Source: a virus
DNA: 29,676 nucleotides
Reading direction: 5' to 3' (one strand)
IMG/VR virus record: IMGVR_UViG_3300027896_000156
Span: 1-29,676 of that record
Every line of letters begins with the position of its first letter. The stretch's first letter is position 1. Below the pieces are notes generated by a model that had not been told where the DNA came from, made no database searches, and saw only the letters and a program-made list of their open reading frames with translations. This document shows, in pieces, positions 1 to 21,845 of the stretch. Both the position numbers and the translations under genes were made by a program.

Positions 1-197
1 ATTCCATCCTGTGCAACAGGAGGATTACCAAAGTCAGTTAATTGGTGTAACTGTGTATTCACCATCTTAGCACCCATAGCAGCTTTTTTAAATGTCTTAC
101 CGTGAGCTTTCATAAACGCTTCTTCTGTAGGAAACTTACGGTAGAACTCAGCCTCGTTCTTAACCTTAGCTATTTTTAAAAATTGATTTTTATTCAT
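1..197 (-). CDS. Probable virion-associated protein, N-terminal fragment (cut by window edge)
   Basis: This leftward reading frame opens with ATG at 197 and stays open to the left edge (65 codons seen), so only the N-terminus is visible. It begins MNKNQFLKIAKVKNEAEFYRK and continues with a Lys/Phe-rich, helical-looking segment (KFPTEEAFMKAHGKTFKKAAMG). Its ATG overlaps the end of the HNH gene by 8 bp, as expected in this packed operon. I recall similar EFY-KFP-EEAFMK-HG openings in large virion proteins of crAss-like phages, so a tail or capsid cargo protein is my inference. No catalytic motif is visible in the part present. The intact overlap and smooth coding character argue that it is real. 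Confidence 0.7.
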   Translation of the reverse strand, partial: MNKNQFLKIAKVKNEAEFYRKFPTEEAFMKAHGKTFKKAAMGAKMVNTQLHQLTDFGNPPVAQDG

Positions 198-843
198 TAT
201 TTTGTATTATTAATTTGCAAAAATTTATAAACTCTTCCATACTTAAAGTATTTTTCATTATGTTTACTGCAGTACATACTAACTGTATATTATCTATAGT
301 ATATCCTTTACTAGAATCTATTCTATCAATACTTAAATTAGTTGATAACCTTCCTTGTAATATAGTATGAGTCATAGGAATTTTAGTAATAGAGCATTTT
401 CCTTCTTGATCATTCCATAATACTTTTAATATATCTAAAGATAGTTCAAATTGTAATTTTTTCTTTCTAGCTCTACCCTTTGCACCATTTATGATTTCTT
501 TTAAATAATAATCTAAACTATTAGACTCAGTCATTCTGGTAAAATTAAGTCTAGATTTTTTAGAACATTTTTTACATCTATTTTTAAAACCTCTAGTTGT
601 ACTTGAATCTAAATGAAAGTTTTCTTTAGTTAAAGGAAAAATATTTTTACAAGAAGTACAAGTCCACAAATTCTTTTCTAAAAGAAGTTGTTTATTTAAA
701 GTATTTGTATCTACTAATTTTAAAGCACAGGTTTTACATTTTCCAAAATACCCATCTTTATTATTAGGTTGTTTCCAGTAGTTATCTAAAGTTAATTCTT
801 GTTTACAACTTTTACATTGTTTCTTGAGAATTTGATCTTTCAT
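190..843 (-). CDS. HNH homing-type endonuclease with two zinc-binding repeats
   Basis: The 217-residue protein has two copies of a zinc-knuckle unit: Cys10/Cys13 with Cys36/Cys39, then Cys62/Cys65 with Cys90/Cys93. Each has the form CxxC, an aromatic-containing stretch, then CKxC. A basic linker leads to an HNH-type nuclease core at about 148-198: Cys150, the LSIDRIDSSKGY segment (Asp173, Asp175), then NIQLVC and a VNIMKN helix. This arrangement is typical of free-standing phage HNH endonucleases, which cut DNA and promote their own spread. It sits between two probable virion genes, overlapping the downstream one by 8 bp and separated by 18 bp from the upstream one, with no obvious promoter of its own. 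Nuclease class is confident; homing activity is inferred from family and location. Confidence 0.88.
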   Translation of the reverse strand: MKDQILKKQCKSCKQELTLDNYWKQPNNKDGYFGKCKTCALKLVDTNTLNKQLLLEKNLWTCTSCKNIFPLTKENFHLDSSTTRGFKNRCKKCSKKSRLNFTRMTESNSLDYYLKEIINGAKGRARKKKLQFELSLDILKVLWNDQEGKCSITKIPMTHTILQGRLSTNLSIDRIDSSKGYTIDNIQLVCTAVNIMKNTLSMEEFINFCKLIIQNNE

Positions 844-861
844 ATTGAACGTTTGTATGAT

Positions 862-2136
862 TTATTTATATTTTTCCAACCATCCACCTTTAGGATGTTC
901 AGTGACATAATCTCCATCAAATTTATACTTCTTTCCTGGTTTCATCAACTTTTTATCTCCAGTGTTGCTTTCTCCTATAACATCATAGTTCACTCCTTTC
1001 ATTGTTATTTCATTAGAAGGAATAATAGTTGTCTCACCTGGATGAGCCCATTGTCCCATAGGATCTATTATTGCTCCATTCTGACTAATTGTTTTAGGAG
1101 TCCAATCTAATCCATTCTGATAGAATTGCATTTCTTTACCATCCTGTGCAGAAGCTTTAGTCTTCTTAGTGTATTTACCATTAGCAGGAGCTGAGCCAGC
1201 TGTGCGTGCATATGTGAATCCTACAGCACCTGGAAGACTACCGCCCATTTGAAACTGTCCACCCCATGCAGGAGAATAATTTCTTCCTTTTGTATTATTA
1301 CTCATACCTACAAATCCAGGGCCCATAGAAACAGAAGCATCATTATAATTACCATGTTTACCATAGTTATCATGTATCTTCTCTAGATTCATTCCATCCT
1401 TAGCTTTTTTATTTCCTTTAGACTCACTTTTTAATTCTTGAAACTTTTTAGTGGTGGCATCAGTCCATTTACCATCTGTACTATATAAAGCTTTGAATGC
1501 TCTTGTCACTTTACTATGTGTAACAATATCATCATCTTTAGGAGCGTTTTCTACAAATTGAAATGCTTTTACCATTCTTTGTTTAAAATCATCAAAAGAT
1601 TCACCACCTGGAACAGCTGTTTCAGGATGCTTCACCCAATCTTTTTCTTTAAAACTTCCTTGAGGAGCTCCATCATATTCACCAATATCCCATGTTCTTA
1701 ATAATGGATTAGTATACACTGGTAAGTTAGCAGTTTGGCCAATTACACTTGCTGTTTCTTTTGCTCTTTGTATATCACTAGCTACAACAGCTTTCTTTCC
1801 TCTTTTTAAAGCTTCTTTACCAATACCTTCTGCATATTTGATTCCTTTGTTTGTCAAGTCTGTTGGATTGACACCATTTTCTCTATCTTCTGCTGTAGCA
1901 TCATCTTCACCATGTTCAAACACTTCTGTACCATCCACCTTCACTGGAGCCACTTTAGGACCTGTTATATCTCCACCATTTGCATATTTTTCTAACCAAC
2001 CACCTTGTTCATAAGGTTTTGCTCCTCCTGCAATAGCACCAAAGAACTTCCTTTGTTGTTCTGTTAAAGGATGTCCGTGTACTGATTTATCATGCAGTAT
2101 TTCTCTGGCCTTGGTAGATGTTAATTTTTTTGCCAT
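862..2136 (-). CDS. Virion-type protein with degenerate histidine-phosphatase (PGM-like) domain
   Basis: The 424-residue protein carries, at about 68-220, the signature order of the histidine phosphatase superfamily: EHGED at 74-78, SDIQRAKETA at 120-129 with Arg124, IGEYDG at 151-156, GGESFDDFKQRM at 177-188 and the second His in DIVTHSKVTRA (His207). The RHG triad has Glu74 in place of the phosphate-binding Arg, so activity is doubtful. The domain is flanked by GGWLEKY peptides (45-51 and again at the extreme C-terminus, 417-423). A PGAVGFTYARTA segment at 302-313 resembles the start of the major capsid protein. These flanking elements and the position after the tail genes suggest a packaged virion protein. 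It overlaps the upstream gene (start shared with the TAA at 2136-2138). Confidence 0.8.
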   Translation of the reverse strand: MAKKLTSTKAREILHDKSVHGHPLTEQQRKFFGAIAGGAKPYEQGGWLEKYANGGDITGPKVAPVKVDGTEVFEHGEDDATAEDRENGVNPTDLTNKGIKYAEGIGKEALKRGKKAVVASDIQRAKETASVIGQTANLPVYTNPLLRTWDIGEYDGAPQGSFKEKDWVKHPETAVPGGESFDDFKQRMVKAFQFVENAPKDDDIVTHSKVTRAFKALYSTDGKWTDATTKKFQELKSESKGNKKAKDGMNLEKIHDNYGKHGNYNDASVSMGPGFVGMSNNTKGRNYSPAWGGQFQMGGSLPGAVGFTYARTAGSAPANGKYTKKTKASAQDGKEMQFYQNGLDWTPKTISQNGAIIDPMGQWAHPGETTIIPSNEITMKGVNYDVIGESNTGDKKLMKPGKKYKFDGDYVTEHPKGGWLEKYK

Positions 2137-3013: not shown

Positions 3014-6000
3014 TTATGAACATCCAGTTTCTAAATTACTCATTACACCATCCCCATCAACTTTCCATGGACCATAAGATGGAGAAGGAAGTCCACTTAA
3101 TGATGAATTGTCAATAGTCATATTAACACATACATTTACACCTTCTGGTTGTGTTACTGGATCTACAGCTATATTTTGAAGAGATGCACCACAATCATAA
3201 TAATAATATTGAGAGCCAGTTGAACCAGGTGCTAAATTCCAAGTGACACAAGTGGGAGCGATAGTAGTGGTAGTGGTAGTTGTACAAACTACACATACAG
3301 CAGTACCATCTAATGAACAATTATCTGATACAAACACTGCATTACCATTTATTTCACAATTTAATACCACTGTTGTTGTAGTGGTGGTGGTTGGTGTAGG
3401 TATTTCATTAATAGCTATAGCTGTAAGATCACATCCTTGATTCAATCCAGAATAGAAGAATGTTTGATCTGTTACATAGAAATTTGGTAAATAACTATGA
3501 AAACTCACCCATGTCTTACTATTAAAATTAAATGAAAGTGTCCAGCTTTTATTACAGAAATAATTTCTATCTGTTAGTTGTATCACCTTTCTTAATGTAG
3601 TGGTTCCATAAGTTTTATTTACATAAAATTCTTGTGTTTCCTCATCATATTGCACTGTATCATCAATAGGAATATAATCAAGTTTTGTGAGTATTATTCT
3701 ATCATATTTAGCATCATATACACCATGTAATCCTATTCCATTAAAATGATTGTCTGTATTTACATTAGAAAAATATTTTAGAATTTGGAACGGTAAGTAG
3801 TTTGAGAAGAATCTATTCATTCCAGATCCAAATGCTGTCAAATCTGTAGGGGTGTATCTTCCATACATATTTAAAGAAATCAAGAATATCTGACCTCTTT
3901 TAGCATCTACACTCACTTGTCCTTCAGGTATTTTTATCAGAAGTTTATTCTGTGTACCCATGTATCCTATATCAGTTTCAGCAAAATCTTGAGGAGGAGC
4001 AGATTTAAATAATTGATCATTTCCTATATATGCTGCTTGAGGATTACTTGTATTAATTGTAAGTAGTGAATTATATACAAGTCCTTTATTTTCAAATCTA
4101 GCTAAAATTCCTTTATTCTGAATACCATCTAAAGATACTAATTTACCATAGTTCTCAGGAAAGTCAAAAGAAGATACAGGTCTGTAAATTAACCAATTGT
4201 TCACTCTATTATCTGTATAGCTCTGTTGAGGATCTGAATATATACCTCTAAATGGAAAATGACTATAACAAGGATTACCACTATAATTCACTGGTAAATG
4301 TGTAAATGAATTTTCTGTATTCTGTTTAGAATAAGTTACATTATATGTATATGTATTATCAAAAGCAATTGGTACAAATGTTTGTTGTAACCAATTATCT
4401 GGAATACCTGTACTTACATGTGGATAGAAGTCTCCTTCCTGATTGTTAAATGCTTGACGTAAATCTACATTAATAGAAGATTCTGTATAATAATAAGGAA
4501 TACCATAAGCAAAAAGATACATCTTTCCAGTGTACACCGCATTTAATGGAGCAGATGTTACATTTCCATTTATTGATGTAGTGGTACTACTTGTTGTTGT
4601 AGTGGTTCCAATTAAAGTGGTTGTATTAGCAGAACAATCAAAATTATGAGCTTTAATTGATATAATATTATTAAGCACTATATGATTAGGAGTGGTCCAG
4701 TTATATAATATAGATCTAGCAGAATGCCAGAATTGAGGAAAAGCTACATTTCCTATTTCATCAAAAAATATATCACTATCATCTGGTGCACCCACTCTAT
4801 TATCAATAAAGAATGGAAGTTTTGTTTTAAATGCAAATCTTCCTATAAATGTGTCTCCACCAAACACTACATCTGAATCAGATGAAGAAATATTATTAAA
4901 TATTCTTTGGAATCCTGTATCAATTGTTTGATAGGAATACATCTGTCCCCATTGGTTAGGAATAATATTTTTTATAGATCCATAATAAGAAATAACATTG
5001 ATTGGATTTAGATATTCTGGTGTATCACAATGTCCACTTTGACCAAGTGTAAATCTTGATGTATCAGTAATTAAACTTCCACTATTACCAGCTAATGATG
5101 TTGTATCACTAGGAAAAGGGAGGGAAGGTGTTGTTTCTGATGTTTTTATATAAACAGAAGATTCTCTTTGATAATTATTTACATTCCATTTATCTCCTAC
5201 AGACTCAACACCTGGAATAAGATATTGACATATATCAAGAGATCTCTGTTTAATACTTTGATTATTTTGTATAGGGGCAGAATAATCATATGTAGCTACA
5301 GAGTTAAATGAATAAGCATAATTTTGTCTACTTATTCCATTTAAATATATTTGTAAATAAGCTTGATATGCTGTAAACATTGCTGTTGCATCAAATCCTC
5401 CTAAGTTAGCAATATTAAAACTTGAAATAAGTGCAGCTAATTGAGCATCTGCAGTGAGTAATTTATATTGTGCATTATTCTTCACTTGTATAAAGTGAGC
5501 TTCACCAGCACCAAATATTACATTCTCCATTTTAATAACACTTCCTAATGTAGGTTGTCCAAAAGAAGTTTCAGGAGAATTAAAGACCATTCTATATTTA
5601 GAATCATATTGAAATCCATCTAATTGAGAAGGATAACATGCTACATTTCTATTACTTTCTGCAATACTATATTTATTTGATCCACCTATATGTACTGGAA
5701 TGGTAGTTGAATTTACTGTTTGAGGATTATCTACAAACACTGTAATTTGCTGTAAAGAAGAAGGATTGTTTGGATCTGTATATTGAAATAAAGCACTTTT
5801 GCCAGCAGGACTAGTTCCATCTACAAAACAAGTGAGAGTGAATCCTATAGCTGTAACATTTGTAATAGTTGCAGATCCAGATAAAACAACTGGATAACTT
5901 ATAGAACAAATTTCAGTGAGTGTAGTGGGCATATTAACAGTGATAAGCTGACCATCATTACAATCATTATATTGTATTGTACCAGCAGTGGTCACTACTA

Positions 6001-7906
6001 ATTGATAACTTTGACACTGTTGATTGTATGCATTATTTTGAGAAAGAAGAAATGGATCTGGATTTAAATCATTATATGGATAGTTAGGATAGTAGTAATA
6101 AGTGGGAGTGGGATTGTTATATGAAGTATCTCTTGTATACTTACCTACATTTCTTAATATTCCTTTTGCTACAATTGATTGATTTGTACTTCTATTTCCT
6201 CTGGTTATTTTAAATCCAATAATTTGAGCTTTTTGTTCTACTGTCAAGTTAGATGCATTTATTAACTCTCTCACTTGTTCTACATCCACTTTAACACCGA
6301 TTGGATAAACAGCAGCAGATGTTTGCATCTCTACATTATATGTACCACTAGAATTAATTGTTGGTGTAGCACTTTCAAATGCAGGACTTATTACTATATC
6401 TGGAAACTTATGATGTCTAATTGGTTGATCAGCTAAATCTCCCCAAACCAATGTGTTACAAGGATATTTTTCTGTTGATTCCCAATAAGCAAACTCACCG
6501 TATTGATATGGTGTAGCATTTCCAATTGTTGGACCAGTTGCTTCTCCTAATACAGATGCTGTATTATATATCTTCCAATAAGGAAGAGTGGTAGCACCAC
6601 TTCCATCAGGAATAAAATCTGGATTGGTATTAGGAATATTAGGTTGAGAAAATTCATTATAATTTTTTGCTCTACCAGGAATATGAAAACTATCTGTTTG
6701 TTTACCATTATCTAACAAAAATGTTATCTCAAAAGGATACACTTCATCTCTTAAATAGCCTCTTAAATTACTTGCATTAAATGGATTTGCGTAGTTTTCT
6801 GTAGAAGGAATTTTATAAGTTTCCCATAATAATGTAATTCTATTAGCAATAGATTGATAATTAATTTCATCTATTGATGTAACTTGGTCCCATATAATAA
6901 TATCTCTTGCAGTGGTTAAATCTTGTGCAATATCATAATAAGGAAACTTCTCATATATATCTCCAAGAGTTAATGGAATAGAAGTTACATTTTGTCCTGT
7001 ATATGTGATTTCTTTTGATGTATTATCAATATAATATGTACCTACTAATTCAACAGATGTAATATCATTTATGGTTTTAATTATAGCTATGTTGTAATAT
7101 TGAAAATATCCTGTAGTGTCAATATTCTTAATATTCAATACAATAGACTTACCCACTGGATAATTAAAATTAGGAGTGGTAAGTTGTGTATTAGCAATTG
7201 GTATAGGATTGGTTATAGAATAATATGATGTATATGGATCACCAAATGCAGTGCCATATTGTATAGCAAATTGATAAGTGCCAGCAAGTAAGTTTCCTCC
7301 AGTGACAACATCTTGTAAAGATATTTCTGGAATAGAAAAATTAGGCTGCACTTTTAATTTATTACAATCAACAACTCCTATTTCAGGAGTGTCTTCACAA
7401 ATATTTCCTCCTGAAATTGTAACCCAAGGTGGATTTTGTAAATCTAAAAATCTTCTGGGATTGTATCCATCTGTCCAATAAATTTCTGTTGTACAATTAG
7501 TAATTTTATGTACAGCTTTTAAAATTGGATAGTTGATATTAAAATTAAGACAACGAGCACTAATGTATTGAACATAATTACAATCATTATTCACCATATA
7601 TCCAATTTGACAATCTCCTGTTTGAGGATTGGTCAAAAAGAATACATGTTTATTTTGTTCAGGAATAAAATGCTCCCCTATCACTTGAAAGTTTTGAGGA
7701 AAGTTTAGGCATAACTCATTACCTGGCTCATTCTGATAGTTAACAGAAGATGCATCAAAGTTTTCTAAAGCAGCATTTAAAGCATATGTAAGACTACCCT
7801 TTTCCACCTGATTAACAGATAGATCCATGTTTAATCCTTTTCTACCTAGATTAAACTCACTTCTTACATTACCTTGTGGTGATTGTTGTTGTTCCTGTTC
7901 TGCCAT
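3014..7906 (-). CDS. Tail muzzle / stabilization protein (large distal tail protein)
   Basis: At 1630 residues this is the largest product in the window. The start (EFNLGRKGLNMDLSVNQVEKGSLTYALNAALENF followed by a NEPGNELC segment, given here in pieces) matches the pattern I associate with the crAss-like tail stabilization or muzzle protein, which caps the short tail and is related to P22 gp10-type proteins. It is Tyr/Asn/Ser-rich and beta-rich throughout, without membrane segments. Thr-rich linkers occur near residues 1100, 1510 and 1545. After the last one comes a Cys-containing C-terminal domain of about 80 residues that resembles the C-terminus of the 156-residue fibre protein. It follows the tail tubular gene with a 7-bp gap, the standard order in these phages. 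Family assignment is from recognition and synteny. Confidence 0.82.
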   Translation of the reverse strand: MAEQEQQQSPQGNVRSEFNLGRKGLNMDLSVNQVEKGSLTYALNAALENFDASSVNYQNEPGNELCLNFPQNFQVIGEHFIPEQNKHVFFLTNPQTGDCQIGYMVNNDCNYVQYISARCLNFNINYPILKAVHKITNCTTEIYWTDGYNPRRFLDLQNPPWVTISGGNICEDTPEIGVVDCNKLKVQPNFSIPEISLQDVVTGGNLLAGTYQFAIQYGTAFGDPYTSYYSITNPIPIANTQLTTPNFNYPVGKSIVLNIKNIDTTGYFQYYNIAIIKTINDITSVELVGTYYIDNTSKEITYTGQNVTSIPLTLGDIYEKFPYYDIAQDLTTARDIIIWDQVTSIDEINYQSIANRITLLWETYKIPSTENYANPFNASNLRGYLRDEVYPFEITFLLDNGKQTDSFHIPGRAKNYNEFSQPNIPNTNPDFIPDGSGATTLPYWKIYNTASVLGEATGPTIGNATPYQYGEFAYWESTEKYPCNTLVWGDLADQPIRHHKFPDIVISPAFESATPTINSSGTYNVEMQTSAAVYPIGVKVDVEQVRELINASNLTVEQKAQIIGFKITRGNRSTNQSIVAKGILRNVGKYTRDTSYNNPTPTYYYYPNYPYNDLNPDPFLLSQNNAYNQQCQSYQLVVTTAGTIQYNDCNDGQLITVNMPTTLTEICSISYPVVLSGSATITNVTAIGFTLTCFVDGTSPAGKSALFQYTDPNNPSSLQQITVFVDNPQTVNSTTIPVHIGGSNKYSIAESNRNVACYPSQLDGFQYDSKYRMVFNSPETSFGQPTLGSVIKMENVIFGAGEAHFIQVKNNAQYKLLTADAQLAALISSFNIANLGGFDATAMFTAYQAYLQIYLNGISRQNYAYSFNSVATYDYSAPIQNNQSIKQRSLDICQYLIPGVESVGDKWNVNNYQRESSVYIKTSETTPSLPFPSDTTSLAGNSGSLITDTSRFTLGQSGHCDTPEYLNPINVISYYGSIKNIIPNQWGQMYSYQTIDTGFQRIFNNISSSDSDVVFGGDTFIGRFAFKTKLPFFIDNRVGAPDDSDIFFDEIGNVAFPQFWHSARSILYNWTTPNHIVLNNIISIKAHNFDCSANTTTLIGTTTTTSSTTTSINGNVTSAPLNAVYTGKMYLFAYGIPYYYTESSINVDLRQAFNNQEGDFYPHVSTGIPDNWLQQTFVPIAFDNTYTYNVTYSKQNTENSFTHLPVNYSGNPCYSHFPFRGIYSDPQQSYTDNRVNNWLIYRPVSSFDFPENYGKLVSLDGIQNKGILARFENKGLVYNSLLTINTSNPQAAYIGNDQLFKSAPPQDFAETDIGYMGTQNKLLIKIPEGQVSVDAKRGQIFLISLNMYGRYTPTDLTAFGSGMNRFFSNYLPFQILKYFSNVNTDNHFNGIGLHGVYDAKYDRIILTKLDYIPIDDTVQYDEETQEFYVNKTYGTTTLRKVIQLTDRNYFCNKSWTLSFNFNSKTWVSFHSYLPNFYVTDQTFFYSGLNQGCDLTAIAINEIPTPTTTTTTTVVLNCEINGNAVFVSDNCSLDGTAVCVVCTTTTTTTIAPTCVTWNLAPGSTGSQYYYYDCGASLQNIAVDPVTQPEGVNVCVNMTIDNSSLSGLPSPSYGPWKVDGDGVMSNLETGCS

Positions 7907-9429: not shown

Positions 9430-10163
9430 TAATTTGTTGGTTTTGCATTAGGTGCTTGACCATCTATATTATCAGATGTCATATCTGTTTTAATAGAGAA
9501 ATATGTACTTAATAATTTTTTAGATGTAATATCTAGCACTTGTGTTTCTAAATATCCTGGACATCCATATTCTTTATCTAATGGATTGATACATAATTGA
9601 TCTATTGTATAATTTGGTCCGCATCCGCATCCACCAGGTGGATAGAGTAGTTCATTAGAAACATCATCTTCAAAGAATGCAGATATTCTAACAGCTTTTA
9701 ATAAAGGATTATTTACATATAAATATCCTCCATTAGCTATCCAATAATACTGATCATTTTTTATAATAGGAAGTTTTAATAAATTTAAATATCTATTTAT
9801 AGTAACTTCTTTAAATCTTTTTCCTTGTCCACCCATAGCATTTATGGAATACACTCCTTGAATAAGATATTGATAATTACCTTCACTTATACGAGGAAGT
9901 TTATATTTACTTCTAGCCACTTGACAAGGATCTGTATATCCACAACAATCAGAAATAGGCACCTCAATCATCTCTAAACAAGGAATAGTTGTGAATAATG
10001 TATCAGTTGCCCAAAGTTTTCTTAAATTAGTTTCACGTTTAATTAATAGTTGTGTATTATTTTTAATCTCAGAAGCTATCGCTCTGTTAGTAATTAAACC
10101 ATCAGAGGATAGCAATTTATGCGTAGCACGCACATCTGAAACCATTTTTCTTAATGTTGCCAT
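9429..10163 (-). CDS. Probable tail connector/ring protein
   Basis: The 244-residue protein has a basic helical N-terminus (ATLRKMVSDVRATHKLL...) and then beta-rich sequence with several Cys clusters: DCCGYTDPC at about 93-101, GGCGCGPN near 182-189, and further single Cys residues. The motif YQYLIQGVYSINAMG followed by FKEVTINRYLN is distinctive, but I cannot tie it to a named family. It lies between the metallophosphoesterase and the HU-like ring gene and overlaps both, in the block that encodes the portal-tail connector of crAss-like phages. A ring or collar role is therefore inferred from position. Length and packing make it a confident gene; function is uncertain. Confidence 0.65.
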   Translation of the reverse strand: MATLRKMVSDVRATHKLLSSDGLITNRAIASEIKNNTQLLIKRETNLRKLWATDTLFTTIPCLEMIEVPISDCCGYTDPCQVARSKYKLPRISEGNYQYLIQGVYSINAMGGQGKRFKEVTINRYLNLLKLPIIKNDQYYWIANGGYLYVNNPLLKAVRISAFFEDDVSNELLYPPGGCGCGPNYTIDQLCINPLDKEYGCPGYLETQVLDITSKKLLSTYFSIKTDMTSDNIDGQAPNAKPTN

Positions 10164-11413
10164 TATAAATACTGTTTAAATATATTTGTCATTCCATCAT
10201 TCTCATCTATTAAGAATGCTGTAACCTCTCCTTTAGACATCATATGGCCATTTTTATCATCCCATAAACTTTTTGCATTTGAGAATGCGGGAACTTGATA
10301 AAATTTAATACCATTAATATCTTGGCTTATTTCATGATGTTTGTCTCCTGTAAATATATAGAACACTTGATGATTTGACCAATGTTCTCTAAATTCTATT
10401 GGAAATATTCCAGCAAGTTTTGCTGGTTTAATAGCATCTCCATGATTAAACATCATTGCTGTAACACCATATCCTACATACTTTCTGTATTTAGGACTAA
10501 TATTAAACTCCACTCTTTCTTGATTTCTAAAATATGTTTGTAAGAAATGTACTAAATGCCATCCTACATATTCATCATGATTACCTGCTACATAAGTGAT
10601 ATACACTTTATTGGTGTATTGTAATAACATTGTAATTACAAGAATTTCATGATTACATATTTCAATAAAACTCTCATGATATGTACTTATATTTTGTTGA
10701 GGAGTTCCTTTAGTTGTAGTGCCTGTAAATTCACTATTGAATTCATCAGATCCTAATATATAAGTGACATGATCTAAATTATTAGATAGTTGAGCTTGTG
10801 CCAATATAGTTTCCATTCTATATCTCAATCTAGCACATCTTTCAGCCATTTCATTACTACCATCTATATCAAACTTATTCATATGAGCATCCTGTTTACT
10901 AATCACTAGACAACCATGAGGTTTACTAGGAACAAACTTAGGACTCATTATATCTTGACTAATAGGCTCATATGAAGCTAAAAAGTCTACAAACGCATCT
11001 TGAAAAACTTGCTCTGTAGACTTCTTACCTAACCATGCTTTTACTTGCCAATGAGGCTGTTCAGCATTTCCCCAAAAGTTTTGTACATATTTAGTTACTT
11101 CCCACTTTTCTGTATCTATTTTGCACTTTTCAATCAGTTCATCCAGTGTTTTAATTTCTTCTTTAACATTAGCAATCACCTCACCTGTTCCTTTTTCTAT
11201 ATCTTCTGTAAACTTAACCACCATGTCTTCTAACTCAGCTACATAATTTCCAATCTCTGCATCATCTTGTATCTCTTCCTTTTTTCTTATTTCATTTAAT
11301 AACTCTTCAACTTCACTTTCTGTAATTCTTAGCTTTTCAGCATAAAATCTTTTTGATTTTTTCCAGTGTAACAATTGTTGCAGCTGTTGTAGAAGTGACT
11401 GATTTTCAATCAT
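10163..11413 (-). CDS. Calcineurin-like metallophosphoesterase with N-terminal HTH and coiled coil
   Basis: The 416-residue protein has the full set of metal ligands of the calcineurin-like phosphoesterase family: Asp175-x-His177 (QDAH), GSDEFNSE (Asp223), GNHDE at 277-281, NHGD at 323-326 and GDKHHE at 356-361. The N-terminal ~45 residues (WKKSKRFYAEKLRITESEVEELL) look like a small helix-turn-helix. A charged, helical segment to about 105, likely a coiled coil, comes next. The fold cleaves phosphodiester or phosphomonoester bonds using two metal ions; in phages such enzymes act on DNA or nucleotides, but the substrate here is not readable. It is the first gene after a terminator and has its own promoter-like site, and it leads the tail block. 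Confidence 0.88.
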   Translation of the reverse strand: MIENQSLLQQLQQLLHWKKSKRFYAEKLRITESEVEELLNEIRKKEEIQDDAEIGNYVAELEDMVVKFTEDIEKGTGEVIANVKEEIKTLDELIEKCKIDTEKWEVTKYVQNFWGNAEQPHWQVKAWLGKKSTEQVFQDAFVDFLASYEPISQDIMSPKFVPSKPHGCLVISKQDAHMNKFDIDGSNEMAERCARLRYRMETILAQAQLSNNLDHVTYILGSDEFNSEFTGTTTKGTPQQNISTYHESFIEICNHEILVITMLLQYTNKVYITYVAGNHDEYVGWHLVHFLQTYFRNQERVEFNISPKYRKYVGYGVTAMMFNHGDAIKPAKLAGIFPIEFREHWSNHQVFYIFTGDKHHEISQDINGIKFYQVPAFSNAKSLWDDKNGHMMSKGEVTAFLIDENDGMTNIFKQYL

Positions 11414-11581: not shown

Positions 11582-12052
11582 TTATGATATACATTCTGCT
11601 GGTATACTGACAGGACCATCGAATGATCTATAACATGGAGTTGGATCATCATTGTTAAAATATGCACTTCCTGGTGTACCATCACATAATACATAATTAT
11701 AAGTTCCAGCTAATGAAACTCTACCTTGATAACAAGTGGGGGCTGCAGTGGTGGTTGTAGAAGTGGTGGAAGTAGTAGATGTTGTTGTACTACTAGTTGT
11801 GCTACTGGTTGTTGTAGTGGTTGTAGGAGCACCTGATATTGGCATATACAAATCTCTGCTACAAACTCCTGTAGATCTTGCAAGAATATTCGTACTACCA
11901 TCTGGAACCACTGTAGATGTATATCCAGCAAGTAAATCTGTTCTTGACACACCTGTAGCAAATGGTGTTACATATCCATCTGCATCTGAATATAGATTAA
12001 AAGGTCCAACATCTGACCCTGCTAATGTTAAAGTTATTAATACTGTATACAT
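11582..12052 (-). CDS. Short Thr-rich fibre/appendage protein
   Basis: The 156-residue protein has three parts. Residues 1-73 are a beta-rich domain that matches the N-terminus of the 288-residue tail-associated protein (2136-3002): VLITLTLAG, FNLYSDADG, dLLAGYT, STGVCSRDL, MPI. Residues 75-102 are almost only Thr and Ser, encoded by simple ACA/ACT/ACC repeats. The last ~50 residues are a Cys-containing domain (PTC, YNYVLCDG, PCYRSFDG, AECIS) that resembles the C-terminus of the muzzle protein. This anchor, linker, terminal domain plan suggests a surface appendage. It is the last gene before a terminator. The Thr/Ser linker is a plausible O-glycosylation site, which is speculation. Confidence 0.72.
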   Translation of the reverse strand: MYTVLITLTLAGSDVGPFNLYSDADGYVTPFATGVSRTDLLAGYTSTVVPDGSTNILARSTGVCSRDLYMPISGAPTTTTTTSSTTSSTTTSTTSTTSTTTTAAPTCYQGRVSLAGTYNYVLCDGTPGSAYFNNDDPTPCYRSFDGPVSIPAECIS

Positions 12053-12064
12053 TTATTTATTGGT

Positions 12065-13114
12065 TTAATAGAGTATGTTAAAATTATAACAAGTGTAATG
12101 TTGTCCTGCTCCACCTACATTAGGGAATTGCATATCTGGATATGATACAGAAGGTGTAACTTGTGTTTTTGTTAATGCTACAAAGTCATAAGTGAATATA
12201 AGTCCAGATTGTGTAACTCCATACATATTTGTTCCATCATAATATAATGCATTAGGAGTTGTATTTAATGTTAAAGCTATCTCTGCTAATAATGTTGTTC
12301 CTGAATACAATTGAATCTTACCATCTAATGTACCAGACTTGCTATAAGCAATAACAGTTTGATTGTTATTTGGATTGTATAAAATAGATGTGATGAATGA
12401 GTTATCACTAATACTCATATATGGTGTAGCAATGTGTGTAGTTAAATTATACTCATAAATATCTGATACAAGACTTGGTGAAGTACCTACACTATTAACA
12501 ACAAATAATGTGTTACTATCTTTAAATGCTATACCGTATCCAGCATTAACACTTGGATATGAACCATCCCAAATTGTAAATTGTGAATCAAATGTTATAC
12601 TAAATGGACTTATTGTATAATTATATACAAGGTAGTTTGAGCAACTATCTATCATATACATTTTTGAACTGTCCATAGCAATTTGTCTAGGAGTACATCC
12701 TTGAGAAAGAGTGGCTAGTTCTATATTTGTATGTGTTACAGAATTGTATAGTGATAGTTTCTTTGTACTTTCACGATTTAAAAATATAGAACAATCTGGA
12801 ACTATAATAGTTGTAGTTGATGATGTTGTACTTGTTGTACTTGTTGTTGTACTTGTTGTACAACTACTTATAATGTCACATAATAACGCTTTAAGTGTTG
12901 GACTAGCAGCAATAGCATCTAATACAAAAGCAGGATCAAGTTTACTATCTATTTTTTCAAGAGACACTGTAATTGAATCACCACTTTGTGTTCCAGACCA
13001 TGGTAGATTTGGTCCTATATATTTTACATTATTAGAATTAGTTTTACAATCGTTACAATCACTATCTGGATGATAGTAAGCATCATAACAAGGTGTACCT
13101 GGTAAACAATTCAT
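12065..13114 (-). CDS. Tail fibre-like protein with Thr linker and beta-propeller-like domain
   Basis: The 349-residue protein opens with a Cys-rich anchor (CLPGTPCYDAYY, DCNDCK, VKYIGPNLP) and GDSITVSLEKIDSKL. This layout resembles the N-terminus of the neighbouring collar fibre (CVSYTGAAVPQLGI ... IEETL). Thr/Ser residues 85-102 form a linker. The remaining ~245 residues contain repeated units of the type 'IAMDSSKMYMID ... YNYTI', 'GIAFKDSNTLFVVN ... YEYNL', 'ILYNPNNNQTVIAY ... IQLYSG' and 'ALYYDGTNMYGVT ... FTYDF', spaced about 40-55 residues apart as in beta-propeller blades. A receptor- or glycan-binding fibre is inferred. It starts 15 bp after the collar-fibre stop. Confidence 0.7.
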   Translation of the reverse strand: MNCLPGTPCYDAYYHPDSDCNDCKTNSNNVKYIGPNLPWSGTQSGDSITVSLEKIDSKLDPAFVLDAIAASPTLKALLCDIISSCTTSTTTSTTSTTSSTTTIIVPDCSIFLNRESTKKLSLYNSVTHTNIELATLSQGCTPRQIAMDSSKMYMIDSCSNYLVYNYTISPFSITFDSQFTIWDGSYPSVNAGYGIAFKDSNTLFVVNSVGTSPSLVSDIYEYNLTTHIATPYMSISDNSFITSILYNPNNNQTVIAYSKSGTLDGKIQLYSGTTLLAEIALTLNTTPNALYYDGTNMYGVTQSGLIFTYDFVALTKTQVTPSVSYPDMQFPNVGGAGQHYTCYNFNILY

Positions 13115-15267: not shown

Positions 15268-16413
15268 TTAAGGAATTAAAGTGGTAGTTGTTGATGTAGA
15301 AGGCCAAATAGTAGTAGTTGTACTAGTTGTGCTAGTAATAGGACCACTATCGTCTGTTACAGCTCCTAATGCAGCAACCAATACAGTTTCAATTGCTGAA
15401 CTTAAAGATTGAGGAGCAGCAATTATTACAGTGCTGTCTTCATGTACATAAGCACCCCATTCGTATACAGATTTATCAAGTTCATTGAATTTGATATAAT
15501 AAGTATCATATGTAGTACCATCGCTTACCCAAGACTCAAAGTTCTCGTTGTAACCAACCATTCTATACAAATGTTTCAAATATCCAGCTTGATAGCTATA
15601 GAAGTTCTTTTCTAATTGTTGAATCTCTGCAGAAGTACCAGATGGATAAGAAGAACGTTGAGTGATTACAGGTTCTGCTACAAAATTACAAGCATCAGCA
15701 ACAATGAAATCTGCTGTAGTTGCAGGTCCACTATATACAAATGTACGGAAGTACATTCTGTCATATTCCCAAGGGAATGCTGCAACATCACATGGTTGAC
15801 CATATTTAGTTAATGGTTTACCAGAAATACGTAAGATTGCATTTTGATCATTACCAATTCTTTGGAATTGATAGAATGTGTTAAAGCTAATGTTATCAGG
15901 GTTGATACCAGGAGCTTGTTGTGTCAACTTAAGAATGAATGCATCAATCAAAGCTGGAACATCAACATCGCTACAAGGATTTTCACCACATGCTAAACAT
16001 GGTGCATTAACAGTTACACTACGAGTGAAACCATTGAAATACAATGTGTCAATGTAGCTAGAATGAGCACGCAAGGTTAATGTTACCACATCACCTGGTT
16101 TTACATTCCAACCTGCTACATCAGTAACTTGGTTAGCAGCAATTGGATTACCAACCACTTTATACCATTCAGTTACATTTGAACCAGTAGAAGAGATCTT
16201 ATCAGAACGCTTACTACCTTGTAAATATGTGTTTATTCTACCTTGTGCTAAATAGAAGTATGGTTTAGCAGCAATATTACCAGCGTTTGCAACACTGTAA
16301 TCACTTCTAAAGATACCAAACTGACCAGCTGTTAAGTTTTGTGTAGATCCAGCACTAGGTAGAGTATTTCCTACTGGAACCACAAAGAGCGTGGTTAATG
16401 AAAAATCGGCCAT
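15268..16413 (-). CDS. Abundant structural protein with Thr-rich C-terminal tail (candidate auxiliary head protein)
   Basis: The 381-residue protein is beta-rich with a short Cys cluster (PCLACGENPCSDVD, about 143-156). It ends in a Thr/Ser/Pro tail from about 357 to the stop with no folded domain after it. Codon choice (frequent ATC, AAC, GGT, CGT) resembles that of the major capsid gene more than the fibre genes and suggests high expression. Its leader is A-rich (AATAAAAAACACAATGG) without a Shine-Dalgarno site. It is bounded downstream by a strong hairpin. Its place after the capsid gene and two connector-type genes fits an auxiliary capsid or head-surface protein, but no family motif proves this. 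Confidence 0.6.
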   Translation of the reverse strand: MADFSLTTLFVVPVGNTLPSAGSTQNLTAGQFGIFRSDYSVANAGNIAAKPYFYLAQGRINTYLQGSKRSDKISSTGSNVTEWYKVVGNPIAANQVTDVAGWNVKPGDVVTLTLRAHSSYIDTLYFNGFTRSVTVNAPCLACGENPCSDVDVPALIDAFILKLTQQAPGINPDNISFNTFYQFQRIGNDQNAILRISGKPLTKYGQPCDVAAFPWEYDRMYFRTFVYSGPATTADFIVADACNFVAEPVITQRSSYPSGTSAEIQQLEKNFYSYQAGYLKHLYRMVGYNENFESWVSDGTTYDTYYIKFNELDKSVYEWGAYVHEDSTVIIAAPQSLSSAIETVLVAALGAVTDDSGPITSTTSTTTTIWPSTSTTTTLIP

Positions 16414-18338: not shown

Positions 18339-19892
18339 TTAGAATTGTGGAATTTCTTCAATCAAAACTGTACGTGATAAGTCTTCAATAAACACATCAC
18401 AACGGTCTTTCATCCAGATTTCATAACCAGGGAATTTGTTTGCAGAACTCATACCTTGAGACTTAGCAAAACCTAAGTGGTGACGAGTACCATCAATATA
18501 ACCCCAAGTCATAGAAGGAGCACCTTTCATTCTCACTTCACGGATGTTGTTAATCATAGAACCATCGCTCATAGGACTAACATCAAATACCATGAATACA
18601 GGTGTAGACTTTTTGTTTTGACCAAACTCTAAGTTAGTTTGAGGCAAATCCAATTCTTTCAAGTGAATAAGTTCAACACGACCTGTTTCACGTGTAACCA
18701 TTGCATCAAATGCAAAGTTGTATGTGATGTGTTGACCTTCACCTTGCATATAACGATTACCGCTATCTGCCATGAAAGTTAATCCTGAATTTAACGCATC
18801 ATTCTTTAAAGCTTGTTGAAATACATCAAAACCAGCTTCATTAGTGTACATTTTAACTCTACGATCCTTAACATCAACACGTCTGTAGAATAAGTCACCA
18901 AACACTGAACGAATCAAGTTTGCAGTGAACTCACCACGGTTGTATTGTACTAAGTTACCGTTATTTCTCATTCTGTGGTATACACCAGCAGAAGTACGTT
19001 TTAATTCTTGTTTAGAACCGTTAGTTTTAACAGTGCCTGGTTTAGCCCAGATCATACGTTTAACTTTCAATTCTAACATTGATTTACGCATCCAGAACTC
19101 AATAAATGGTTCCCATTTAACATCATTACGAGTTAAAGGTAATTGATTTCTACGTTGAGGAGCATATACTAAGATGTCTAATGGTTTACCAGAAGCATCT
19201 CTCATCATTTTATCATCAGCCCATTCGGTAATTTTGTGCTCATAACCATATGCTGATCCTAAAGATTCAAACATAGTGATTTGTTCACCCAAACGAGGTA
19301 AGCCTAATAAATCTTGATCAAACTCACCGATTGCAGCATCAACTAATTCCAACTCAATACCTGTTTGTAAGAAAACAGAACTAACATAATCTACAGTTGG
19401 ATTATCTGTTACAAGAGTGAAAGTGTACAAATATCCTACATTCCAAGGAACTGGATCTTTGGTAACATAAAAACGAGGACCATACTGACGAGTACCTACA
19501 GATACAATTGCATTTTTAGAGAACTCATTAGTATCAATTACTAATTGAAATTCTTGACCATCAATACCAGGTTTGTCTAAATCCTGAGTGCTTGTTGGAA
19601 TGTCAATGATTTTAGGGAATTTGTATGGAACTTGTACTTGCCACTTCCAAGCATCACTGTTATTGTCAATATAGTAAGGAGTAGACTTGTTAATCATGTC
19701 TAAGAAATCATTACTATACAAAGAGCTCTGAGTATACAAACTGATAATTTTCTTATCATAATCTGCTGGCTCTGTAGAGTGAAAACTTTCCAAGTGGTTT
19801 GCATCTGTCAATTTACCTACAGCACGCTTATCCATAGAAGCTACTCTTGCGTAAGTAAAACCAGTTAAACCTGGAATTGTCTGAATTGCCAT
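18339..19892 (-). CDS. Major capsid protein
   Basis: The 517-residue protein is the expected size and sits in the expected order (TerL, portal, scaffold, capsid) for the HK97-fold major capsid protein of crAss-like phages. It starts MAIQTIPGLTGFTYARVAS and has a long, charged N-terminal part. Regions such as FLDMINKSTPYY, RQYGPRFYVTKDPVPW, PLTRNDVKWEPFIEFWMRKS, and a late SPMSDGSMINNIREVRMKG to MTWGYIDGTRHH stretch follow. Codon use includes many ATC, AAC, CGT and GGT codons, unlike most neighbours, as in a highly expressed gene. It is preceded by the scaffold gene (31-bp A/T-rich gap) and followed by a hairpin cluster. The PGLTGFTYARVA peptide at 7-18 recurs in the phosphatase-like protein at 862-2136. 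Confidence 0.92.
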   Translation of the reverse strand: MAIQTIPGLTGFTYARVASMDKRAVGKLTDANHLESFHSTEPADYDKKIISLYTQSSLYSNDFLDMINKSTPYYIDNNSDAWKWQVQVPYKFPKIIDIPTSTQDLDKPGIDGQEFQLVIDTNEFSKNAIVSVGTRQYGPRFYVTKDPVPWNVGYLYTFTLVTDNPTVDYVSSVFLQTGIELELVDAAIGEFDQDLLGLPRLGEQITMFESLGSAYGYEHKITEWADDKMMRDASGKPLDILVYAPQRRNQLPLTRNDVKWEPFIEFWMRKSMLELKVKRMIWAKPGTVKTNGSKQELKRTSAGVYHRMRNNGNLVQYNRGEFTANLIRSVFGDLFYRRVDVKDRRVKMYTNEAGFDVFQQALKNDALNSGLTFMADSGNRYMQGEGQHITYNFAFDAMVTRETGRVELIHLKELDLPQTNLEFGQNKKSTPVFMVFDVSPMSDGSMINNIREVRMKGAPSMTWGYIDGTRHHLGFAKSQGMSSANKFPGYEIWMKDRCDVFIEDLSRTVLIEEIPQF

Positions 19893-19923: not shown

Positions 19924-21180
19924 TTATTGAAACCATGAAGTGGGTCTGACAGGAGCTTTAGATTTCACAGCACTCTTACTCGCCTGTCTAGCAACTTCTC
20001 CAAATAAATCATTAGATTTTTTGGTGATGCCATTCTTTTGAATTGTAGAGAGTGTAGGATCTTTTTCCAATATCTTCATTAATAAAGCTACCTTTACCTT
20101 CTTCTCATGATTCTCAGGACGCTTAAGTTCCAGAATTGTACGATCAAAATCTGTGAGTGTTTCTCCAGATGGTGTCTTATACTTATCTGTCACTAAGAAA
20201 TCTTGTAGTTCACTAGCCAATTTAGGATTGAGAGGAATACCATCAAACTCTTTCACTTTAAGCTTTTCTTGCAAAACATTTTGTACATTCTGCATATATT
20301 GTTGCTTAATAGCTTGTTGTTGTTGTAATTGTGTCTCTCTTTGTTGCTCTAATTGTTGAAGCTTTGCAGCTTCTTTTTTAACTAACACTTTATGATTTCT
20401 AGTTGCAACTGTTTCTAGATCACCATAATTTTTAAGTCTTTCTATTTCTGTTGTAATATCCTCAGGCTCAAAACCTTGATCAGCTAAAGCCTGTTTAATC
20501 ACTGCTATTTGATTTCCCTCTTCTTTAAGGTCCATCTCAGCAAAAGACTGTATTTTATTAAATGTACCGAAATATTCTTTAGGATCAACTCCTTTTACAA
20601 ATATGGCATCAAATGCTTGTTGATAATCTTCTCCAAATTGACCTATGAAGTTATTAACCACTTCAATAGCTCCTTTCTTTTTCTCAGCATTGAATCTTTC
20701 TAGAAACTCTTCAGGAGTGTTGATGGGTGTTTCTTCTTCTTCATCATCTTTAGAAAAGACACCTAATTTATATAGATCTTTAGATAGAGCAGTGAACTGG
20801 TTTGGTTCATCTGTTTCTTCAGGATCTTCTGTAGAAGTTTCAGCGACAGGAGCTACTGCCTTTTTTGGAGATTTAACAGGAGGAGTTTCTTCTTCATCTT
20901 CATCTTCCTCAGTATCATCAAAAAAATCTTCAATTGATTTAGAAGGATCTGGTGCTTCTGTAGTTTCTTCAGATGTAGTTGCAGCTTCTTTTTTACCAGG
21001 AGCTTTCTTTTCAGGAGTAGGAGGAGGTGTATCTTTTATATCCTGAATATCATCAGGATTAGCTGTTGATGTTTCTGGAGCAAATAAATCTTGTAAAAGC
21101 TCCTGACTTCCTGCACCAAACTCCATAGTATTCTCAATACTGAAGTTTCCCATAGAAGGGCTATCTAGATTTTCAGCCAT
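19924..21180 (-). CDS. Capsid scaffold / assembly protein
   Basis: The 418-residue protein has the composition expected of a scaffold: a very acidic, Pro/Glu/Asp/Thr-rich N-terminal ~130 residues (for example FFDDTEEDEDEEETPPVK), then a helical body. A Gln/Glu-rich coiled coil near 270-310 includes KLQQLEQQRETQLQQQQAIK, and the C-terminus is basic (SKSAVKSKAPVRPTSWFQ) and may bind the capsid shell. It lies directly before the major capsid gene and after the SPFH gene, with a 137-bp upstream gap that has a promoter-like site. No protease motif is visible, so any scaffold-cleaving protease must be elsewhere or absent. Confidence 0.8.
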   Translation of the reverse strand: MAENLDSPSMGNFSIENTMEFGAGSQELLQDLFAPETSTANPDDIQDIKDTPPPTPEKKAPGKKEAATTSEETTEAPDPSKSIEDFFDDTEEDEDEEETPPVKSPKKAVAPVAETSTEDPEETDEPNQFTALSKDLYKLGVFSKDDEEEETPINTPEEFLERFNAEKKKGAIEVVNNFIGQFGEDYQQAFDAIFVKGVDPKEYFGTFNKIQSFAEMDLKEEGNQIAVIKQALADQGFEPEDITTEIERLKNYGDLETVATRNHKVLVKKEAAKLQQLEQQRETQLQQQQAIKQQYMQNVQNVLQEKLKVKEFDGIPLNPKLASELQDFLVTDKYKTPSGETLTDFDRTILELKRPENHEKKVKVALLMKILEKDPTLSTIQKNGITKKSNDLFGEVARQASKSAVKSKAPVRPTSWFQ

Positions 21181-21317: not shown

Positions 21318-21845
21318 TTATTCTTTAAAAACTGTAAACATTTTAGTGGTGACAATCCTTCCAAAATATACTTTAAGGACATTAACACCCATGTCATCAC
21401 ATTCAGATTTGAGTTTATTTTTTATCTGTGTTAAAGTTTTTCTATCTTTTATTTCTTCAAATGTACAGTCTGTTAGTAAATCAGCTATCACTCCTCTAGC
21501 TATATCATGTAAATTGTCAGCTGCATTGTTTGTATCAACCAACCATTTCTTAAACTCCACTATATCAAACTTAATAATTGGTTCTACGCTCACTTGTTTA
21601 TTGTCAGTAGTGGTGATATCTACAGCTGCTACATGGAATGTATCTATAGTTTTTATCACTGTATGTATTTCATCAATTATCGGGATTTTGAAATTAAGTC
21701 CCACTTTTAATGGATGTTTATATTTACCTAGTCTAAGTAGCACACCACCTTCATAACACCTGAGTATTGTCCATGGAGCTAAATAGTCTTTCCATTTTTC
21801 TCCAATCCACTCAAGTGAATTGATTATAATGTTACCATCTATCAT
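21318..21845 (-). CDS. SPFH / band-7 (stomatin-like) domain protein
   Basis: The 175-residue protein shows the stomatin/prohibitin signature: ILRCYEGGVLLRLGKYKHPL (28-47), VGLNFKIPIIDEIHTV (48-63), a VDITTTDNKQVSVEPIIKFDI strand pair, and a helix with DLLTDCTFEEIKDR followed by MGVNVLKVYFGRI. These match the band-7 order of e-GVV-RLG, PGL-F-IP-ID, T-D-Q-V-V, and late -G-V. It lacks the usual N-terminal hydrophobic membrane hairpin and the C-terminal coiled coil, so it is a minimal domain. It sits 3 bp after the portal gene and before the scaffold gene. SPFH proteins form large rings or cages on membranes in cells; a role in procapsid assembly at the membrane is only a suggestion. Confidence 0.82.
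   Translation of the reverse strand: MIDGNIIINSLEWIGEKWKDYLAPWTILRCYEGGVLLRLGKYKHPLKVGLNFKIPIIDEIHTVIKTIDTFHVAAVDITTTDNKQVSVEPIIKFDIVEFKKWLVDTNNAADNLHDIARGVIADLLTDCTFEEIKDRKTLTQIKNKLKSECDDMGVNVLKVYFGRIVTTKMFTVFKE

Follow-up and report, generated by a model that had tools for sequence, protein, structure and literature searches.

Why does the N-terminal tip of a major capsid protein (MCP) recur, in closely similar form, inside a second protein of the same phage? The window analysed here is the whole of a 29.7-kb IMG/VR virus record (29,676 nucleotides) with a crassvirus-type structural block on its minus strand, from a large set of uncultured freshwater crass-like phages. The block encodes the portal, a candidate scaffold, the MCP, tail ring proteins and the muzzle, then a 288-aa protein and a 424-aa protein (Table 1). 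On translation of the minus strand, residues 302–313 of the 424-aa protein read PGAVGFTYARTA and residues 7–18 of the MCP read PGLTGFTYARVA. The two are identical at 9 of 12 positions, so the coordinates and identity given in the preliminary description are right. The pair is prominent among cross-protein 12-mer pairs of the window, Thr/Ser-rich tracts aside. Within one window such a match is only modestly surprising, and is suggestive rather than proof, since shuffling the residues of the 27 window proteins 300 times yielded one or more pairs identical at ≥9 of 12 positions in 13 trials (~4%). The likeness goes far beyond chance because both peptides are kept in relatives. Our preferred reading, to which we give an even chance, is that the second protein carries an internal capsid-targeting peptide which copies the N-terminal arm (N-arm) of the MCP and binds the same procapsid partner, either the scaffold or the capsid wall.

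Table 1. Features of the window that bear on the shared peptide
Feature	Position	Strand	Basis
Mosaic cargo-like protein, 424 aa	862–2136	−	ORF; 34 relatives; synteny with crAss001 cargo genes
C-terminal folded beta module, residues 356–417	886–1071	−	pLDDT 74–88; tblastn matches
Whole cassette QMGGSLPGAVGFTYARTAGSAPANGKYTKKTKASAQDG, residues 296–333, predicted disordered	1138–1251	−	Conservation profile; invariant alignment columns; pLDDT 23–32
Capsid-like core peptide PGAVGFTYARTA	1198–1233	−	Translation; conservation peak in 94 nonredundant relatives
Predicted histidine phosphatase (branch 1) domain, residues 75–215	1492–1914	−	PF00300, E 2.2e-22
Muzzle protein, anchors gene order for placing the cargo gene	3014–7906	−	PF25731 crAss_MUZ, E 1.1e-34
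Major capsid protein, crassvirus type	18339–19892	−	PF23898, E 1e-27; phrog_11589 major head protein, E 1.1e-31
MCP residues 7–18 PGLTGFTYARVA, N-terminal arm tip	19839–19874	−	Translation; kept in 107/107 MCPs
Acidic 418-aa protein, candidate scaffold and candidate binding partner	19924–21180	−	Place next to MCP and acidity, like crAss001 gp31

Three further features of the block are recorded here. Thr/Ser-rich tracts, up to 11 of 12 residues identical, are common to four structural-block proteins (3014–7906, 11582–12052, 12065–13114 and 15268–16413, all minus strand) and are possible flexible linkers. A Band_7/SPFH protein (21318–21845, minus strand, E 2e-14) lies between the portal and the candidate scaffold, and a 114-kb relative, G006, has a gene of like size and position. 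A DNA-repair-exonuclease-like protein (10163–11413, minus strand, phrog_704, E 3e-45) is encoded inside the block.

The capsid-like peptide is the best conserved stretch of a ~37-residue cassette, which is itself the sole region common to all relatives of the 424-aa protein. When 94 nonredundant copies are aligned on the motif, conservation extends from about −6 to +31 alone, with background information elsewhere, and the consensus reads [AQ]MGGS[LIM]PG[AS]VGFTYAR[TV]..APSNG.Y.KKT.ASAQNG. As this set had been selected by the motif, the search was repeated by the tail NGPYAKKTxxA alone. G..YAR is present in 80 of 80 tail-selected cassettes and PG..G..YAR in 78 of 80, with replacement of F by M, N or S and of T by S, M or Q allowed. 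Fourteen records were also picked by their MCP alone; the gene is present in 13, the fourteenth record stopping short of where it would begin, and all 13 genes contain the cassette (nine with GFTYAR, one with GFMYAR, two with GMMYAR and one with GNMYAR). At the capsid site, PG[LV]TGF[TQ]YAR is kept in 107 of 107 MCP N-termini, with T in 106 and Q in one. Close relatives thus retain the motif in both genes. A more distant MCP, at 88% identity, has PGATGFTYAR; this MCP of the clade lies on a contig binned with a Tissierellales MAG, either as a contaminant or as a hint of the host. At least 80 MCP loci were recovered, on contigs from many samples, and are 95–98% identical, while the cargo gene ~20 kb away is mosaic.

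The peptide is also confined to these two genes. A 17-base DNA pattern coding for GF[TS]Y[AG]R is found exactly twice in 17 of 22 records with an MCP in a first set, and once in the remaining five; a reversed control pattern gives 2 matches in 30 records. In a second set of 35 further records it is found exactly twice in 24, and the single-site records of that set either have no MCP, lack the MCP N-terminus or carry a GFQYAR variant (G054). No record of either set has three sites, and where two are present they lie 16.8–24.2 kb apart (40 records). In G006, a cassette HMM has just two matches, to the mosaic protein at E 1e-25 and to the MCP at E 1e-4. The pattern PGxxGFTYAR was matched 17 times across 84,980 genomes of bacteria and archaea, the sole clear case being the clade's own MCP in the Tissierellales MAG contig, so the motif is not common in unrelated host proteins. 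A text search of published papers found no mention of GFTYAR.

Codon usage bears on how the likeness arose. Of the nine identical residues, five have different codons at the two sites (22 of 36 nucleotides identical overall), and synonymous codons vary within each site, at most positions of the cassette core. What is selected is therefore the peptide, as opposed to a DNA element or a newly made copy. On this comparison both gene conversion and recent duplication are rejected, and the earlier suggestion of a relic of recent recombination is not borne out. The other earlier suggestion, that of a common recognition peptide, fits best: the peptide is the invariant core both of the otherwise mosaic protein and of the MCP N-terminus, is confined to these two genes, and is hardly ever met in bacterial genomes.

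Each peptide might instead be kept for a reason of its own, the likeness being chance or ancient and involving no shared partner. We consider this unlikely, though it has several observations on its side. The shuffles put the chance of a 9 of 12 match somewhere in the window at ~4%, and a sister clade has no equivalent pair. Co-variation of the cassette and MCP motifs was sought and not found: the MCP is rigid and the cassette looser, GFSYAR, GFMYAR or GMMYAR cassettes coexist with GFTYAR MCPs, and in G054 a GFQYAR MCP stands alongside a GFTYAR cassette. This absent co-variation is the main weakness of the preferred reading; it would fit a copy under lower constraint, and would also fit independent constraint. 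However, the match coincides with the most strongly conserved part of the cassette and with an invariant stretch of the MCP. The unchanging cassette positions G, Y, A and R (and, nearly always, P and G) are also fixed in the MCP, while most of the differing positions hold near-isosteric residues (T or V, L or A), and no third gene of the genome was found to have the peptide in the HMM search of G006.

The protein that carries the cassette is highly variable. The 34 relatives of the 424-aa protein have mainly the cassette and the C-terminal module in common, with very different ORF lengths. Across 75 complete relatives the length is 193–2042 aa, and the cassette lies 38–1443 residues from the N-terminus (median 173) and 114–1945 from the C-terminus. 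The histidine phosphatase domain, predicted in the window by profile match, is swapped for other domains in most relatives. Enzymes adjoining the cassette across members are histidine phosphatase, L,D-transpeptidase (YkuD), ADP-ribosyltransferase exoenzyme (ADPrib_exo_Tox) and ART-PolyVal, and weak matches hint at metallopeptidases in some. No member was seen with two recognised enzyme domains. No enzyme is recognised in forms of 193–260 aa, and in the alignment those of 193–258 aa have no room for one, yet the cassette is retained. The protein is more than the phosphatase-like protein of the preliminary description, and mosaic cargo-like protein is the better name. Foldseek and VIA searches with the mosaic protein gave no significant match. 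The cassette, with a pLDDT of 23–32 in the AlphaFold model against the confidently modelled beta module, resembles a linear motif more than a domain. The beta module is also found by tblastn in the sister clade and in Leptolyngbya phage Lbo-JY46, and aligns best to chains 3pjy and 3m7a at a Z of ~6, which is within the tool's stated noise. Lbo-JY46 is a cyanophage whose MCP is 26% identical to the crassvirus MCP of the window, and its 496-aa protein has the module beside a lysozyme-like segment.

The mosaic protein is probably virion cargo located inside the head, mainly because of its gene order and a gp45-like fusion. In G006 the muzzle is followed by a 288-aa protein, the cassette protein, a 1087-aa protein, a protein of at least 820 aa and a 5004-aa protein; in PhiCrAss001 the genes that come after that for muzzle gp44 encode the cargo proteins gp45 and gp46 and then gp47, the RNA polymerase protein. 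With the low-complexity filter off, the 1087-aa protein of G006 gives a weak match to gp45 (E 2e-6). A relative of this 1087-aa protein (E 3.7e-31) is joined to the cassette protein as a fusion in G020, and likewise in G023, a near copy of G020. The G006 cassette protein itself has no match to gp45 at E 10, and comparison of the cassette protein with gp46 gives non-significant matches alone. The predicted ART-PolyVal, ADPrib_exo_Tox, YkuD and His_Phos domains would suit injected cargo. Two neighbouring genes may be mentioned. In the window, an HNH-endonuclease-like ORF (190–843, minus strand) starts MKDQILK, as does the gp45-like gene for the 1087-aa protein of G006 (L422:2550–5810, minus strand); this shared start suggests that the ORF is a homing element inserted just past the start of the gp45-like gene. 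The 5004-aa protein of G006 (L421:4731–19742, minus strand) has NADAR and cpYpsA (SLOG) domains near its C-terminal end, of a kind met in conflict-related phage proteins.

The window MCP matches the PF23898 profile over residues 25–509, above the curated cut-off. A PDB sequence search with it gave no match, and the AlphaFold model (mean pLDDT 38) yields the I-domain alone, at about residues 91–188, with the N-arm unplaced; residues 7–18 lie at the tip of the N-terminus, ahead of the modelled I-domain. By analogy with crAss001 gp31, the acidic 418-aa protein encoded directly upstream of the MCP is a candidate both for the scaffold and for the binding partner. These elements suggest a model in which the enzyme domains of a virion cargo protein swap freely while the disordered cassette stays, kept since it reproduces the tip of the MCP N-arm, [ILM]PGx[VT]GFTYAR. 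The cassette would bind whichever partner holds the N-arm in the procapsid, putatively the scaffolding protein or an N-arm site on the inner capsid wall. Docking would bring the enzymes inside ahead of DNA packaging, and they would later be ejected into the host. We give somewhat less than an even chance to the full proposal that a widespread clade loads a hypervariable effector through a portable disordered tag that mimics the coat N-arm and shares its procapsid partner.

The same pair of sites could also be explained by cleavage, with a head-maturation protease cutting both the MCP N-terminus and the cargo. In T4, gp21 cuts both gp23 and internal proteins, in T4 and SPN3US a single protease trims the MCP and ejected proteins, and a cut between the variable N- and C-terminal parts of the mosaic protein would free separate domains. 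We regard this as improbable, because Peptidase_S78 was not found in 10 nearly full-length relatives and the conserved block, which runs ~20 residues beyond the core, is longer than a cleavage site requires; nor did a Pfam scan find a protease among the window proteins.

Two last alternatives seem to us very unlikely. The cassette could be a linker kept as a recombination joint for domain exchange, its likeness to the MCP being incidental; domain changes do fall exactly at the cassette borders, but synonymous codons vary across the core, which points to selection on the peptide rather than on DNA identity, and the MCP match is left unexplained. Docking of the protein outside the capsid or at the portal vertex, or a decoy for a host capsid sensor, draws on the gp45-like fusion of G020 and G023, since a portion of crAss001 gp45 binds the portal, and on bacterial defences, some of which are reported to sense phage capsid proteins (PMC12578639), but the enzyme content suits delivery into the cell.

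As far as tested, the trait appears limited to one clade. The MCP of the sister clade is 20–25% identical and has a near-invariant N-terminus of its own, NNGIFLRD (MATPVLNNGIFLRD). No copy of NNGIFLRD was found in sister-clade cargo, the search giving the MCP sites and one match with one mismatch alone; NNAGYMRDEQY, a weak match in a 1560-aa protein, was dropped as it resembles a muzzle segment. In crAss001 and the Leptolyngbya phage no MCP–cargo peptide pair stands above background in the stretches searched, and the cassette HMM finds nothing convincing in the sister clade, crAss001 or the Leptolyngbya phage. The peptide in its present sequence form is therefore not a general crassvirus signal. 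The earlier suggestion that similar GFTYAR segments occur in virion proteins of other Bacteroidota phages finds no support either, as neither crAss001 nor the sister MCP clade has the segment.

Crassvirus capsid assembly is described as not yet established (PMC10136315), and the peptide bears on how megadaltons of cargo enter crassvirus heads. A defined peptide common to capsid and cargo makes loading testable through mutation of ten residues. If the reading of an MCP-like targeting peptide is true, it represents a capsid-targeting signal made by coat-protein mimicry. Should the tag be sufficient, it could load chosen proteins into crass-like phage heads, and could guide searches of environmental phages for injected effectors not yet recognised, with any domain adjoining the cassette as a candidate.

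The closest functional parallel is in T4, where a capsid-targeting sequence of ~10 residues brings injected proteins into the core (PMC9958956), among them, by one account, the ADP-ribosyltransferase Alt (PMC9958956, PMC7411985). In both systems a short conserved peptide would mark proteins destined for the procapsid and for injection, with an ADP-ribosyltransferase among the cargo, and the cassette is likewise common to proteins with unrelated flanks. The T4 signal is N-terminal and is removed by gp21, whereas the peptide described here is internal, 38 residues or more from the N-terminus, and MCP-like, in a clade where Peptidase_S78 was not found (10 records). PhiCrAss001 gp45 and gp46 are similar in cargo gene order after the muzzle and in the gp45-like fusion of G020 and G023; they differ in that the cassette protein has no detectable gp45 homology and crAss001 has no such peptide. 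The mosaic family also recalls the polyvalent proteins of phages and conjugative elements, which are multidomain, shuffled and found in a late-gene context, some with ART-PolyVal (PMC5512222). Here the polyvalent-type enzymes (His_Phos_1, YkuD, ADPrib_exo_Tox and ART-PolyVal) sit in different family members, the cassette is constant while the rest varies, and a capsid-like packaging peptide is not met in the part of that survey drawn on here (PMC5512222). For the arm itself the parallel is P22, which has the HK97 fold and an I-domain similar to the one in PhiCrAss001. Its coat N-arm is the scaffold-binding site of the procapsid and later reaches into the neighbouring subunit (PMC9965877); an internal protein there docks, in the procapsid, on the N-terminal arm of an HK97-fold coat protein. 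The difference is that the P22 arm is bound by the scaffold, whereas in the clade described here the cargo would copy the arm.
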